Shown piece after piece: positions 60,458 through 63,270 of a DNA stretch of 64,000 nucleotides (positions within the stretch are counted from its first letter, which is position 1; each line of letters starts with the position of its first letter). Location: assembly GCA_017550285.1 (NCBI GenBank), contig JAFZPP010000001.1, positions 1 through 64,000 on the forward strand, in the 5' to 3' direction. The translations under genes and the position numbers were made by a program. The notes under the pieces are model-generated. The model was given only the letters and a program-made list of their open reading frames with translations. It did no database searches and was not told the DNA's origin. The stretch is from Oscillospiraceae bacterium (GTDB taxonomy: Bacteria > Bacillota > Clostridia > Oscillospirales > Ruminococcaceae).

Positions 60458-60764
60458 CAAAAACCGGTTCGGAGCAAACGCTCTGAACCGGTTTCGTTTT
60501 CGGTATGCAAGCGATCAAACACTTGCATTGAAAGGGTGATGCAGGCTATCCCGTGACAAACATACTTCGGGCAAACTCATCGAACCGTCTTTCAACGGAA
60601 AAAGGAAGTCACGTACAGCTAGACGCTGCATCCCGAAGCAACGCCTGCATCTTGCAGCAAGCAATCTGACAGCATGCAAAACCTGCACAATGAACGTTCC
60701 CACGGGGAGCGTTTAAAGTCATTAAAAGGAAGCTGCCGTGAGCGTGCAGGCACACGCTTGCTGC
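60458..60764 (-). ncRNA. Tandem structured RNA, left copy (about 305 nt)
   Basis: Bounded by its own promoter and a terminator (ACCGGTTC-AGAGC/GCTCCGAACCGGT then TTTTT on the minus strand). Stems seen: GATGCAGGC/GCCTGCATC (60538-60546 with 60643-60651), CGTGAC/GTCACG (60552-60557 with 60608-60613) and CTTCGGG/CCCGAAG (60565-60571 with 60632-60638); the last two cross, so they form a pseudoknot. Also TGCAGCAAG with CTTGCTGCA (60653-60661, 60757-60765) and a hairpin AACGTTCCC/GGGAGCGTT. The RNA carries two CTTCCTTTT segments. No reading frame of note. I do not recognise the family. Confidence 0.75.
60463..60496. terminator. Bidirectional terminator, esterase gene and left RNA
   Basis: ACCGGTTCGGAGC-AAAC-GCTCTGAACCGGT, with T-rich tracts on both sides. 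Confidence 0.8.
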
Positions 60765-60770
60765 ATCTTC

Positions 60771-60799
60771 AGTATATCACGGAATGACAGCTTTGTCAA
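60771..60799 (-). promoter_or_regulatory. Promoter of the left RNA
   Basis: Minus strand TTGACA (60799-60794), 17 bases, TATACT (60776-60771), predicted start near 60764. Confidence 0.85.
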
Positions 60800-60831
60800 C
60801 CCTCAGAGATCATATTCTTTTCAATAAACAT

Positions 60832-61232
60832 ACAAAAAACCGGTTCGGAGCAAAACTCCGAACCGGTTATATTTTAGGTATGCAAGCAATCGGATGACAG
60901 AATCAGGCATCGGAAGCCGTGTGGGTCATGGTGGATAAAAGGAAGTCATCTCAGCCCCTCCCGGGGCATGTTCCTCCGCCTGAACGCTTGCATATAAGGA
61001 TTGAAGCAGGCTATCCTGTGACAAGCTGATCATCGGGCAGATCATAGTGACAGTATGAGTGTTAAAAGGAAGTCACGTACAGCCTGAGGGCTGTATCCCG
61101 ATGCAACGCCTGCTTCTTGCAGCAAGCAATCTGACAGCATACAAAACCTGCACAATGAACTATCCCCGATCGGGGGTAGTTTAGAATCATTAAAAGGAAG
61201 CTGCCGTGAACGTACAGGCACACGCCTGCTGC
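60832..61232 (-). ncRNA. Tandem structured RNA, right copy (about 400 nt)
   Basis: Homologous to the left copy over about 250 bases, with matching pairs changed together: GAAGCAGGC/GCCTGCTTC (61003-61011, 61108-61116), TGTGAC/GTCACG (61017-61022, 61072-61077) and CATCGGG/CCCGATG (61031-61037, 61097-61103), again a crossing pair. AACTATCCCCG/CGGGGGTAGTT replaces the left copy's AACG hairpin. About 95 extra bases before its 3' end carry a third CTTCCTTTT module. It ends in AACCGGTTCGGAG/CTCCGAACCGGTT and TTTTTT. Confidence 0.75.
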
Positions 61233-61238
61233 ATATTC

Positions 61239-61267
61239 AGTATATCATGAAATGTTCCGCCTGTCAA
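61239..61267 (-). promoter_or_regulatory. Promoter of the right RNA
   Basis: Minus strand TTGACA (61267-61262), 17 bases, TATACT (61244-61239). The -35 overlaps the stop codon of the TerD-like gene. Confidence 0.85.
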
Positions 61268-63270
61268 GCCTCCAGGAAGAAATTATTGTCAATCAGGCTC
61301 TGCTCCTTTTCGGATGCAGGCTTGCCCATGACGAGAACAATATCCGCCTCATCACGCGATGCGGCAAATTCCGTCTCCTGCGATGCAAACAGAATATCGA
61401 GATAATTGCGCAGACTGAACGAATTGCTCCGCGGCGCCTGCTGATAGATACTGCGGTCTATCACCTGTCTGCCGTCAAAAATCAGAACGCGGTTCTGAAT
61501 GTCGATCCAGCCATAGTTCATTGTGCGGTATTTACCGGTCAGATAATGCGTAAAGAAGCAGTTTTTCGGGTCATACAGCTTCACATCCGCTTTCGTATTT
61601 GCAACAGCCATGATACCGACAAAGCACTCGCCGATCTCACCGAAGGTCTCGTATCCTGCGTACAGATTGAGATTCATGCTGACGCTGCGGAGCGAGCTTT
61701 TGGCTTTCTCAAAATCCAGATCAATGTACTCTGCGGCATCGGAATGCGTAATATCGCCGCTGAACACCAGCTCATTCGACTTAAACCGCGCATTCCAGCC
61801 GACACGGATCGGCTCGCCGTCCAGCGAAAATGCGGCACCGTGCAGATCAACGTCCACGCGATTTTCGTCATTCCAATAGACAAAGAACCGGATGCATTTT
61901 ACATTCTCCGGAATCTTATATGCAATACCGGAGCGGATATAGCCGCCCTCAGACGATTTATCCGTGATGCGAAGCGTCGAAAGATCAAGGTCATAATCCG
62001 GCATATCCAGATACACCTTTTTGCCGCGCAGTACAGTCTCATTTGCAGCAAGTCTCGCTTGCAGCAGGTGCTGCACCATGATCTTGAGAAGCAGCGTCTC
62101 CTGATAACGATCCTCCTCAAGCTCATTCGCCTCCGGACGCGAGAAGAATCCTGCAAGGCTCGCAAGCGTCTGCGGACTCATTTCGGCAGCATGCGGCATC
62201 AGTTTGTCGAAGATATCCTTCGCCTGATAGCCGTTCCGGAGCAGGTAGGTCAGGTGGCGGAGCATCATACCCGGACGCTCTGCATAGGCATCCAGCGCCT
62301 CCGGCACTTTGCGGCTGACCATTGCCTTGACCTCTGCCTCCCAGGAATGCAACTTATTCGCGCGCAGATCGGCAACCGCCTTCCGAAACTCCGGATTGCG
62401 CGAGTATGCGTTAAAATCAATGAATTTCAGCATCAGCAGTGTCCGCTCTCGCTTCTTTGCAGAGTGAATCAGATTTGCACGGAAATCCCAGAGCGGATAG
62501 CTTTCAAGCAGCTTCACAATCAGACGCTTCTGCGATGTTTTCAGGTGGAAACGGCATCTCGTCAGCGCATAGTCCATGCATTTCCAGACATCGCCCGTAT
62601 GCTGGCAGAGCGCATGAAGAAAGCTGGATTTCTCCCCGGAAGTCAGCGAAGCATCCGCAAATACCGTATAGAACACGATCAGCAGATTCTGCTTGAATGT
62701 AATGCGGACACCGGTCATTTCCTCTGCGGTCAGATGCTTTGCGCATTCCGCAATCATCGTGCATTCCTTATCGGTCATGCGCTCGGTCTTGCCGAGAATT
62801 TTGCGGAACGGAACAGTATACTGTTCATCACTGCCGATCAATGCAACCGTCTTCGCGGCAAGCAGTTTTTCATCGGATTCGTTTTTTTCCGTTTCCTGCG
62901 ATTCCGGCAGCCAGCCCTTTGTCACGGGAATACCGGAAATCTCCTCGATGCCGTATGTAGATGCATAATGCAGAAGCTGATGAAACCGGAAGACCGCCTC
63001 GTCCATTTCCATAACCTGCGACGGAAAATCCGGATACATCGGCTTTGCCTTGACATCGCCGAGATACGAACGGACGCGCGCGACGAAACTGCTCAGGTCT
63101 GCGGATTTTGCAAGTGTCAGGATATCCTTCGGTGCAAGCGTACAGCCAAGCGACAGCAGCTCTTCATTCGCTGTCATTGCTTTGACAAGATTTTCTTCGG
63201 TCAGCGGCTCCGTATCAGCAGAAACAGCAATCAGACGGAGCTCGAAAAAAAGCAGTTGATCGTAATTCAT
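61264..63270 (-). CDS. Large cytoplasmic protein with TerD-like C-terminal part
   Basis: A 668-residue protein without signal peptide or membrane helix. The first ~400 residues are helical (MNYDQLLFFELRLIAVSADT...), probably repeat-like. From about 440 on, strands such as RVDVDLHGAAFSLDGEP, EYIDLDFEKAKSSLRSVSMN and FGEIGECFVGIM resemble TerD/TerZ tellurium-resistance proteins, and the whole resembles the MXAN_6230/SCO0854 type of TerD-associated proteins. No ter genes are nearby. Role unknown; family assignment is moderate. AAGGAGG precedes the ATG. Confidence 0.6.
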   Translation of the reverse strand: MNYDQLLFFELRLIAVSADTEPLTEENLVKAMTANEELLSLGCTLAPKDILTLAKSADLSSFVARVRSYLGDVKAKPMYPDFPSQVMEMDEAVFRFHQLLHYASTYGIEEISGIPVTKGWLPESQETEKNESDEKLLAAKTVALIGSDEQYTVPFRKILGKTERMTDKECTMIAECAKHLTAEEMTGVRITFKQNLLIVFYTVFADASLTSGEKSSFLHALCQHTGDVWKCMDYALTRCRFHLKTSQKRLIVKLLESYPLWDFRANLIHSAKKRERTLLMLKFIDFNAYSRNPEFRKAVADLRANKLHSWEAEVKAMVSRKVPEALDAYAERPGMMLRHLTYLLRNGYQAKDIFDKLMPHAAEMSPQTLASLAGFFSRPEANELEEDRYQETLLLKIMVQHLLQARLAANETVLRGKKVYLDMPDYDLDLSTLRITDKSSEGGYIRSGIAYKIPENVKCIRFFVYWNDENRVDVDLHGAAFSLDGEPIRVGWNARFKSNELVFSGDITHSDAAEYIDLDFEKAKSSLRSVSMNLNLYAGYETFGEIGECFVGIMAVANTKADVKLYDPKNCFFTHYLTGKYRTMNYGWIDIQNRVLIFDGRQVIDRSIYQQAPRSNSFSLRNYLDILFASQETEFAASRDEADIVLVMGKPASEKEQSLIDNNFFLEA

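Follow-up and report, generated by a model that had tools for sequence, protein, structure and literature searches.

What are the two tandem, promoter-bearing units that follow the gene of a 668-amino-acid protein in an Oscillospiraceae bacterium, and what might they do for it? The question is raised by a 64,000-nucleotide stretch of assembly GCA_017550285.1 (contig JAFZPP010000001.1, positions 1 to 64,000; hereafter the window), whose minus strand carries unit A (61267-60835) and unit B (60799-60458), each with a near-consensus promoter and a terminator-like hairpin. The protein gene lies directly 5′ of unit A on the same strand. An earlier note on this DNA, made from its letters alone, had proposed two homologous copies of an undescribed structured RNA. 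We find that the units encode a structured RNA with a pseudoknot, a conclusion supported by its homologues, and that each is an array of modules of ~110 nucleotides (nts), three in unit A and two plus a stem remnant in unit B. The arrays are probably the partner RNAs of the adjacent protein.

The promoter of unit A (61239..61267), identified by promoter scan and from the sequence, has its -35 box overlapping the stop codon of the protein gene; that of unit B (60771..60799) was identified by the scan. Both read TTGACA-17-TATACT on the minus strand, as described earlier, with 11 of 12 consensus matches and a TG ahead of the second hexamer. The terminal hairpin followed by a T run is likewise present in both units. 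In unit A it is an intrinsic terminator flagged on the minus strand by the terminator scan (60838..60868). In unit B (60461..60494, minus strand; sequence and scan) the inverted repeat was flagged on the plus strand only, because the minus-strand stem contains one A.C mismatch. The ~250 bases of sequence said to be shared do align between the units, with a mean column identity of 81%, but the unit of the family is the repeated module and not a 250-nt RNA. The modules, all on the minus strand, are A1 (61119..61232), A2 (61003..61116), A3 (60879..60994), B1 (60654..60764) and B2 (60538..60651). Each is marked by CTTCCTTTT, which occurs five times in the window, always on the minus strand within the units, whereas 0.53 occurrences are expected from shuffling. 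The short hairpin ATGCAAGTG/CGCTTGCAT of unit B (60505..60528, minus strand), recognized from the sequence and its alignment against module A3, resembles the outer helix of a third module whose interior has been lost. The homologous array of another genome of the genus (G295, L022) contains four modules. A 62-amino-acid open frame at 60515-60703 (minus strand), inside unit B and overlapping its modules, looks spurious. One candidate for a third paralogue in the window genome, L002, was rejected, having merely a similar promoter ahead of a protein gene (L002 1501-1540, G000:C27:143507-143546); this promoter is 85% identical to that of unit B and precedes an unrelated gene resembling those of secreted proteins.

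From 5′ to 3′, a module begins with the 5′ strands of helix a and helix b, a variable hairpin, the 5′ strand of helix c (ending in C) and a pyrimidine-rich strand; it continues with a variable part, the 3′ strand of helix b, a short spacer, the 3′ strand of helix c (G first), GAUN and the 3′ strand of helix a. The conserved strand is C-[UA]U[CA]CUUUUA-like. The crossing of helices b and c makes each module a pseudoknot enclosed by the outer helix a. The paired base changes quoted in the earlier note are real and can now be assigned to module 2 of units B and A: GATGCAGGC/GCCTGCATC versus GAAGCAGGC/GCCTGCTTC belongs to helix a, while CTTCGGG/CCCGAAG versus CATCGGG/CCCGATG belongs to the crossing helix b. 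Both-sided changes affect 11 of the 16 pairs of helices a and c among nine modules, and the covariation extends to homologues (13 of 16 pairs in 39 distinct modules). In the latter alignment 92.7% of the cells pair versus 71.8% after shuffling, and pairing drops to 25-51% when the partners are slid by 1 to 3 columns, figures to be read with the alignment having been fitted to the model. Helix b is in none of the models and was tested separately, by comparing own with permuted strands. The best stem that its two expected strands can form has an average score of 19.4 over 80 distinct modules (a set that leaves out the match L062:6058), compared with 13.5 when strands are permuted between modules (200 permutations, standard deviation 0.32, highest value 14.5), and at least six pairs form in 77 of the 80. 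The pseudoknot postulated from the two units is thus supported.

No Rfam family is matched at gathering threshold in the window, and nothing relevant appears up to E 10 in the array. The view that the RNA is not RNase P, transfer-messenger RNA (tmRNA), signal recognition particle RNA or 6S RNA stands, with no Rfam match to any of them in the window, as does the suggestion of an undescribed family, there being no strong Rfam hit in the window and no entry for the family in Rfam 15. The Y RNA covariance models of Rfam also give no match in the window, nor is there anything Y-like up to E 10 in its array. At gathering threshold, 12 bacterial-type and 18 viral or plasmid loci matched only transfer RNA (tRNA), tmRNA, tRNA-Sec and skipping-rope RNA. 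The absence of an Rfam match, the covariation in homologues and the comparison of own with crossed strands of helix b together support an undescribed structured RNA; searches of open-licence papers in PubMed Central listed none describing either the RNA or the RNA-protein pair. Skipping-rope RNA (RF02924) was considered as the identity of the viral modules introduced below and rejected, as alignment showed it to be a different RNA beside them. It resembles them in being a phage RNA, of which one copy lies ~100 nts from an array in L200 (2421-2491), but differs in sequence and structure, and the RF02924 hit overlaps no module. Another copy (G113:C2:3151257-3151336, L204) is located elsewhere in a genome with a bacterial-type array.

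The neighbouring protein gene is the strongest lead to the function of the RNA. This open reading frame (61264..63270, minus strand) encodes a helical-repeat region, a TerD-like domain (~residues 450-615) and a short C-terminal part; its homologues are 46-76% identical, and no Pfam family is found at E ≤1. Residues 450-595 match the NCBIfam model NF041916 (MXAN_6230/SCO0854 family RING protein; E 6.7e-19), at 67.6 bits and thus below the cut-off of 600. The two proteins have the TerD-like part in common and the similarity is limited to it. Compared with the TerD family, associated with tellurium resistance and phage inhibition, the difference is that TerD is here fused to a long helical-repeat region.

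The gene adjoins the array in 23 of 31 distinct bacterial-type loci (L056, the same array as L065, was left out of the counts of 31 loci and 32 arrays). Such constant proximity would be expected if the RNA were a leader or trailer controlling the gene in cis, and modules do lie 5′ of the gene in G108, in L098, in L059 and in most viral loci; L059, L098 and L125 are the three bacterial-type loci in which the gene is 3′ of the array. However, the array follows the gene on its 3′ side in 20 bacterial-type loci, among them that of the window and one on contig L140 with a 60%-identical copy of the gene. Moreover, a promoter of its own (at least 9 of 12 matches, 3-12 nts before the first module) precedes 23 of 32 arrays compared with 2.0% in shuffles, a terminator follows within 60 nts in 19 of 32 (0.3% in shuffles), and in 8 of 31 loci the gene is not in view at all. 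Cis-regulation is therefore quite improbable in our judgement. The arrays or single modules without the gene in view are L064, L087, L094, L097, L099, L102, L105 and L109; two genomes have arrays with and without it, G249 (L094, L095) and G376 (L099, L106). An inverted repeat resembling a miniature inverted-repeat transposable element, GGCAACACCGCACAA...TTGTGCGGTGTTGCC, occurs near several loci (L125 at ~1500-1320 and 4240-4070, L124 at 1-230, the end of L097, and L092 just 5′ of the array).

The association also holds across genomes. A protein search detected the partner in 15 of 396 genomes of the family and in 11 of 30 of the genus, in all 23 of ~419 with overlaps removed (the two 396-genome family samples being taken as the same draw, since their handles agree where listed). 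The RNA is present in 22 of these 23 and in none of the other genomes, giving a Fisher p of 9e-36, uncorrected for relatedness. In the 23rd genome, G108, a deeper search with filters off, which was not applied to the negatives, revealed a single module on the 5′ side of the gene (E 2.8e-7). With model R1, modules were found in 10 of 30 genomes of the genus, and with model R2 in 14 of 396 genomes and 6 of 126 genera of the family; in the sample of the order, under stricter filters, the RNA was found in 1 of 394 genomes, that of the window. Scanning GTDB contigs for the pattern brought up 11 stretches, with the labels Ruminococcus, Oscillospiraceae or Clostridiales, and one with the label Lachnospiraceae. 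Most matches of the family-wide DNA search were short stretches of promoter or terminator (L002, L004-L021, L023), and G295 was the sole true homologue outside the window genome.

The pair is not confined to bacteria. The protein profile identified 64 loci in IMG/VR, 11 of them on contigs >200 kb, and the bacterial and viral protein profiles match each other with probability 100 (E 1.3e-51, 637 columns). Beside the viral protein gene lie tandem modules with the order helix a, CUAU (55 of 84), helix c of ~8 base pairs, UUCCUUCUA, a loop of 21-107 nts, the 3′ strand of helix c, about five bases (AAUUU-like) and the 3′ strand of helix a; no helix b was seen in them. The 84 modules were kept by score from 154 regular-expression matches, and in the 45 that were aligned (A8) both-sided changes occur at 14 of 15 pairs, with 240 cells against 88 after shuffling. 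Before the searches with R2 and R3, 10 of the 66 viral, plasmid and phage loci were dropped as apparent duplicates (L143, L144, L148, L154, L173, L175, L176, L184, L186, L193); the R2 viral search also left out further duplicates and L198, L202 and L203. Model R3 gave 183 matches at E ≤0.05 across 60 loci, every one on the strand of the gene. Such matches occur at 53 of the 55 viral, plasmid and phage loci, including 31 of the 33 from which the model had been given no sequence; the five bacterial-type loci searched alongside have none. Among the named records that encode the protein, XacN1, LpeD, Weasels2 (weakly, with a best E of 0.012), MT835874 and LR745208 have modules at E ≤1, and a Niallia taxi megaplasmid has two modules 3′ of its protein gene. 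A scan of the viral contigs with the bacterial motif pattern found nothing. The case for homology of the bacterial and viral RNA types is built on what they have in common, namely the protein partner, the arrangement of their elements and the strand C-UUCCUUyUA; neither model detects the other type significantly. Genes for tRNA and tmRNA cluster round viral arrays (L146, L165, L167, L197 and other viral loci), and RpAliso, RcXuper and XacN1 each have a gene for a tRNA nucleotidyltransferase or nucleotidyltransferase adjoining or close to that of the protein (L222 5051-6052, L223 5274-6263, L138 1478-2341).

These copies bear on two further explanations. In the window, the strand CUUCCUUUU, predicted to be single-stranded, presumably resembles the anti-Shine-Dalgarno (anti-SD) end of 16S rRNA, and the arrays could be trans-acting small RNAs (sRNAs) whose pyrimidine-rich strand pairs with the Shine-Dalgarno regions of mRNAs, with the protein as chaperone. 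Free-standing units with promoter and terminator, in several redundant tandem copies, would suit this, as some known sRNAs occur in that form. The idea was prompted by CUUCCUUUUA, and we set it lower because the strand drifts to AUACUUUUA in other genera: over 80 modules it departs from the Shine-Dalgarno complement (CUUCCUUUUA in 36, CAUACUUUUA in 16), and viral copies read UUCCUUCUA. In addition, a pairing sRNA is not expected to need a co-inherited partner gene at a fixed neighbouring place, and we regard this explanation as improbable. The second is a pair resembling a toxin and its antitoxin, in which the repeated pseudoknot RNA would inhibit the adjacent protein, as in the type III systems ToxIN and CptIN. 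ToxI and CptI are tandem pseudoknot RNAs adjoining a protein gene, a likeness that the present arrays share, together with strict co-inheritance of RNA and protein gene and occurrence on phages and a megaplasmid. In type III systems, however, the antitoxin consists of short repeats that hardly differ from one another, paired with a small ribonuclease as the toxin. The present modules are ~110 nts long and diverged between copies, and the 668-amino-acid protein, predicted to contain a TerD domain, matches no Pfam family, so that module length, protein size and predicted fold all differ. As a rule the array is preceded by a promoter of its own and follows the gene on its 3′ side; beyond the 3′ end of the window arrays no small ribonuclease toxin gene was found, the next gene there being convergent. 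We consider a toxin-antitoxin pair very improbable.

What the modules may carry is suggested by their loops. Loops of at least 70 nts occur in 21 of the 84 viral modules, and the T-arm motif GTTCRANTC is present in 13 of these 21 compared with 1 of the 63 shorter ones. ARAGORN reports a tRNA in 7 of the 21 long loops when their ends are joined, in 1 of 21 unjoined (L188) and in none of 21 shuffled and joined; because of this difference about six of them look, in sequence, like circularly permuted tRNAs. A further locus outside the 84, L202 2660-2800, appears by eye as a permuted tRNA, the 3′ half ahead of the 5′ half. Among bacterial modules, GGTTCRA occurs in 7 of 80, with ~1 expected.

The predicted fold of the protein points in the same direction. 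Fold searches with two AlphaFold models of distantly related proteins detected a TerD domain in both. Among the matches listed, Ro60 chains alone align over >300 residues with both models, in the same order and over nearly the whole model, while other helical-repeat proteins align over at most ~195 residues. The models lack a recognizable C-terminal von Willebrand factor A (vWA) domain, as found in Ro60/TROVE proteins, and have a TerD fold in its place. The protein is thus predicted to be a Ro60-shaped helical-repeat scaffold with a C-terminal TerD rather than vWA domain. The TROVE family PF05731 has no match in seven partner proteins; it is also absent from all 13 genomes tested of the 23 with the partner protein, the control Deinobacterium chartae being detected, and the RNA is thus not beside a TROVE gene there. 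By membership tests the RNA does not qualify as a Y RNA, nor the protein as a TROVE protein; the pair would be Ro60/Y-like by design.

According to excerpts of PMC7790460, Rsr, the bacterial Ro60, is encoded with Y RNAs, a Y RNA tethers it to polynucleotide phosphorylase, and YrlA, which carries a tRNA-like domain, has been proposed as a possible decoy for anticodon nucleases. The present system resembles this one in having a non-coding RNA gene beside that of its presumed protein partner, an apparent tRNA-like domain within the RNA (here in viral copies, as in YrlA) and a helical-repeat scaffold of Ro60-like predicted shape; the tandem RNA genes compare with yrlBA in Salmonella (PMC7790460). 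It differs in its TerD domain instead of vWA, in going unrecognized by PF05731, and in an RNA that is built of an outer helix, crossing helices and a pyrimidine-rich strand, is without Rfam match and is arranged in arrays with up to four modules found per locus. Because an adjacent partner RNA, cargo resembling tRNA and a Ro60-like predicted shape coincide, we think it probable that the units are partner RNAs of the adjacent protein in a ribonucleoprotein (RNP) working like Ro60 with Y RNAs, by analogy and not as a proven member of that family.

Several observations weigh against this interpretation. Of nine distinct named phage records that encode the protein, four (WXIN, SCTP-2, RpAliso, RcXuper) yielded no module; neither did L170, and L203 has no R3 match, although the regular expression did find a module there. 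With filters off, R3 gave 17 weak matches on 12 bacterial loci (E 0.62 to 10), four of them on modules; R2 gave six on viral loci outside L140 (E 0.7 to 8.7), five of which overlap modules later found by R3, one by just 26 nts. On the protein side, hhalign against three TROVE proteins yields a probability of 0.2-0.4 (with a thin profile), and Ro60 is not among the listed Foldseek matches of the viral protein. The RNP could then be real and the protein a HEAT-repeat and TerD protein unrelated to Ro60, its shape reached by convergence, as the middling Z of the fold match and the lack of a sequence relation to TROVE suggest. On the other hand, among the matches listed it is Ro60 alone that aligns over >300 residues in the models of two distantly related proteins, and the tRNA-like inserts of the partner RNA recall YrlA; we hold convergence to be unlikely, if not strongly so.

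If the Ro60-like interpretation is correct, each transcript would be a string of modules in which the outer helix and the pseudoknot present the pyrimidine-rich strand, and one module may dock one copy of the protein via the a/c junction and this strand. The variable loops would carry the cargo, plain hairpins in bacteria and a tRNA-like, often circularly permuted, domain in many viral copies, and may determine what is delivered or decoyed. By analogy with Rsr and its Y RNA, the RNA might gate the RNA-binding surface of the protein; alternatively, it might tether the protein to, or shield it from, a tRNA/RNA nuclease or repair enzyme in stress or phage attack. TerD, which stands in place of vWA and is described as a ligand-binding domain in PMC7824862, may sense a ligand or metal. 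For phages, a decoy role against host anticodon nucleases would be attractive. More tentatively, and as something possible rather than probable, this may be a third kind of Ro60-like RNP that has spread between large phages and bacteria, made of a non-Rfam RNA with strings of docking modules, interchangeable cargo including circularly permuted tRNAs, and a helical-repeat/TerD scaffold. In phages the permuted tRNAs would be decoys that host anticodon nucleases cannot cleave, or sensors of these nucleases, or else would deliver tRNA-repair enzymes, and the bacterial copies, domesticated or ancestral, would be used in stress. Two named phages with the protein, RpAliso and RcXuper, encode an adjacent tRNA nucleotidyltransferase, and neither has a module that we could find.

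Names and a handle are thereby given both to an RNA family without an entry in Rfam 15 and to a family of 670-amino-acid proteins, at present listed as hypothetical in phage annotations. Circularly permuted tRNAs that occur naturally inside a phage non-coding RNA would, if true, be a surprise in themselves. Few RNP machines are common to bacteria and animals, as Ro60 with its Y RNA is, and what this one does in bacteria has been worked out for few species. A second system of the same apparent design and unrelated in sequence, if true, would test what that design is for, in small genomes and in phages.
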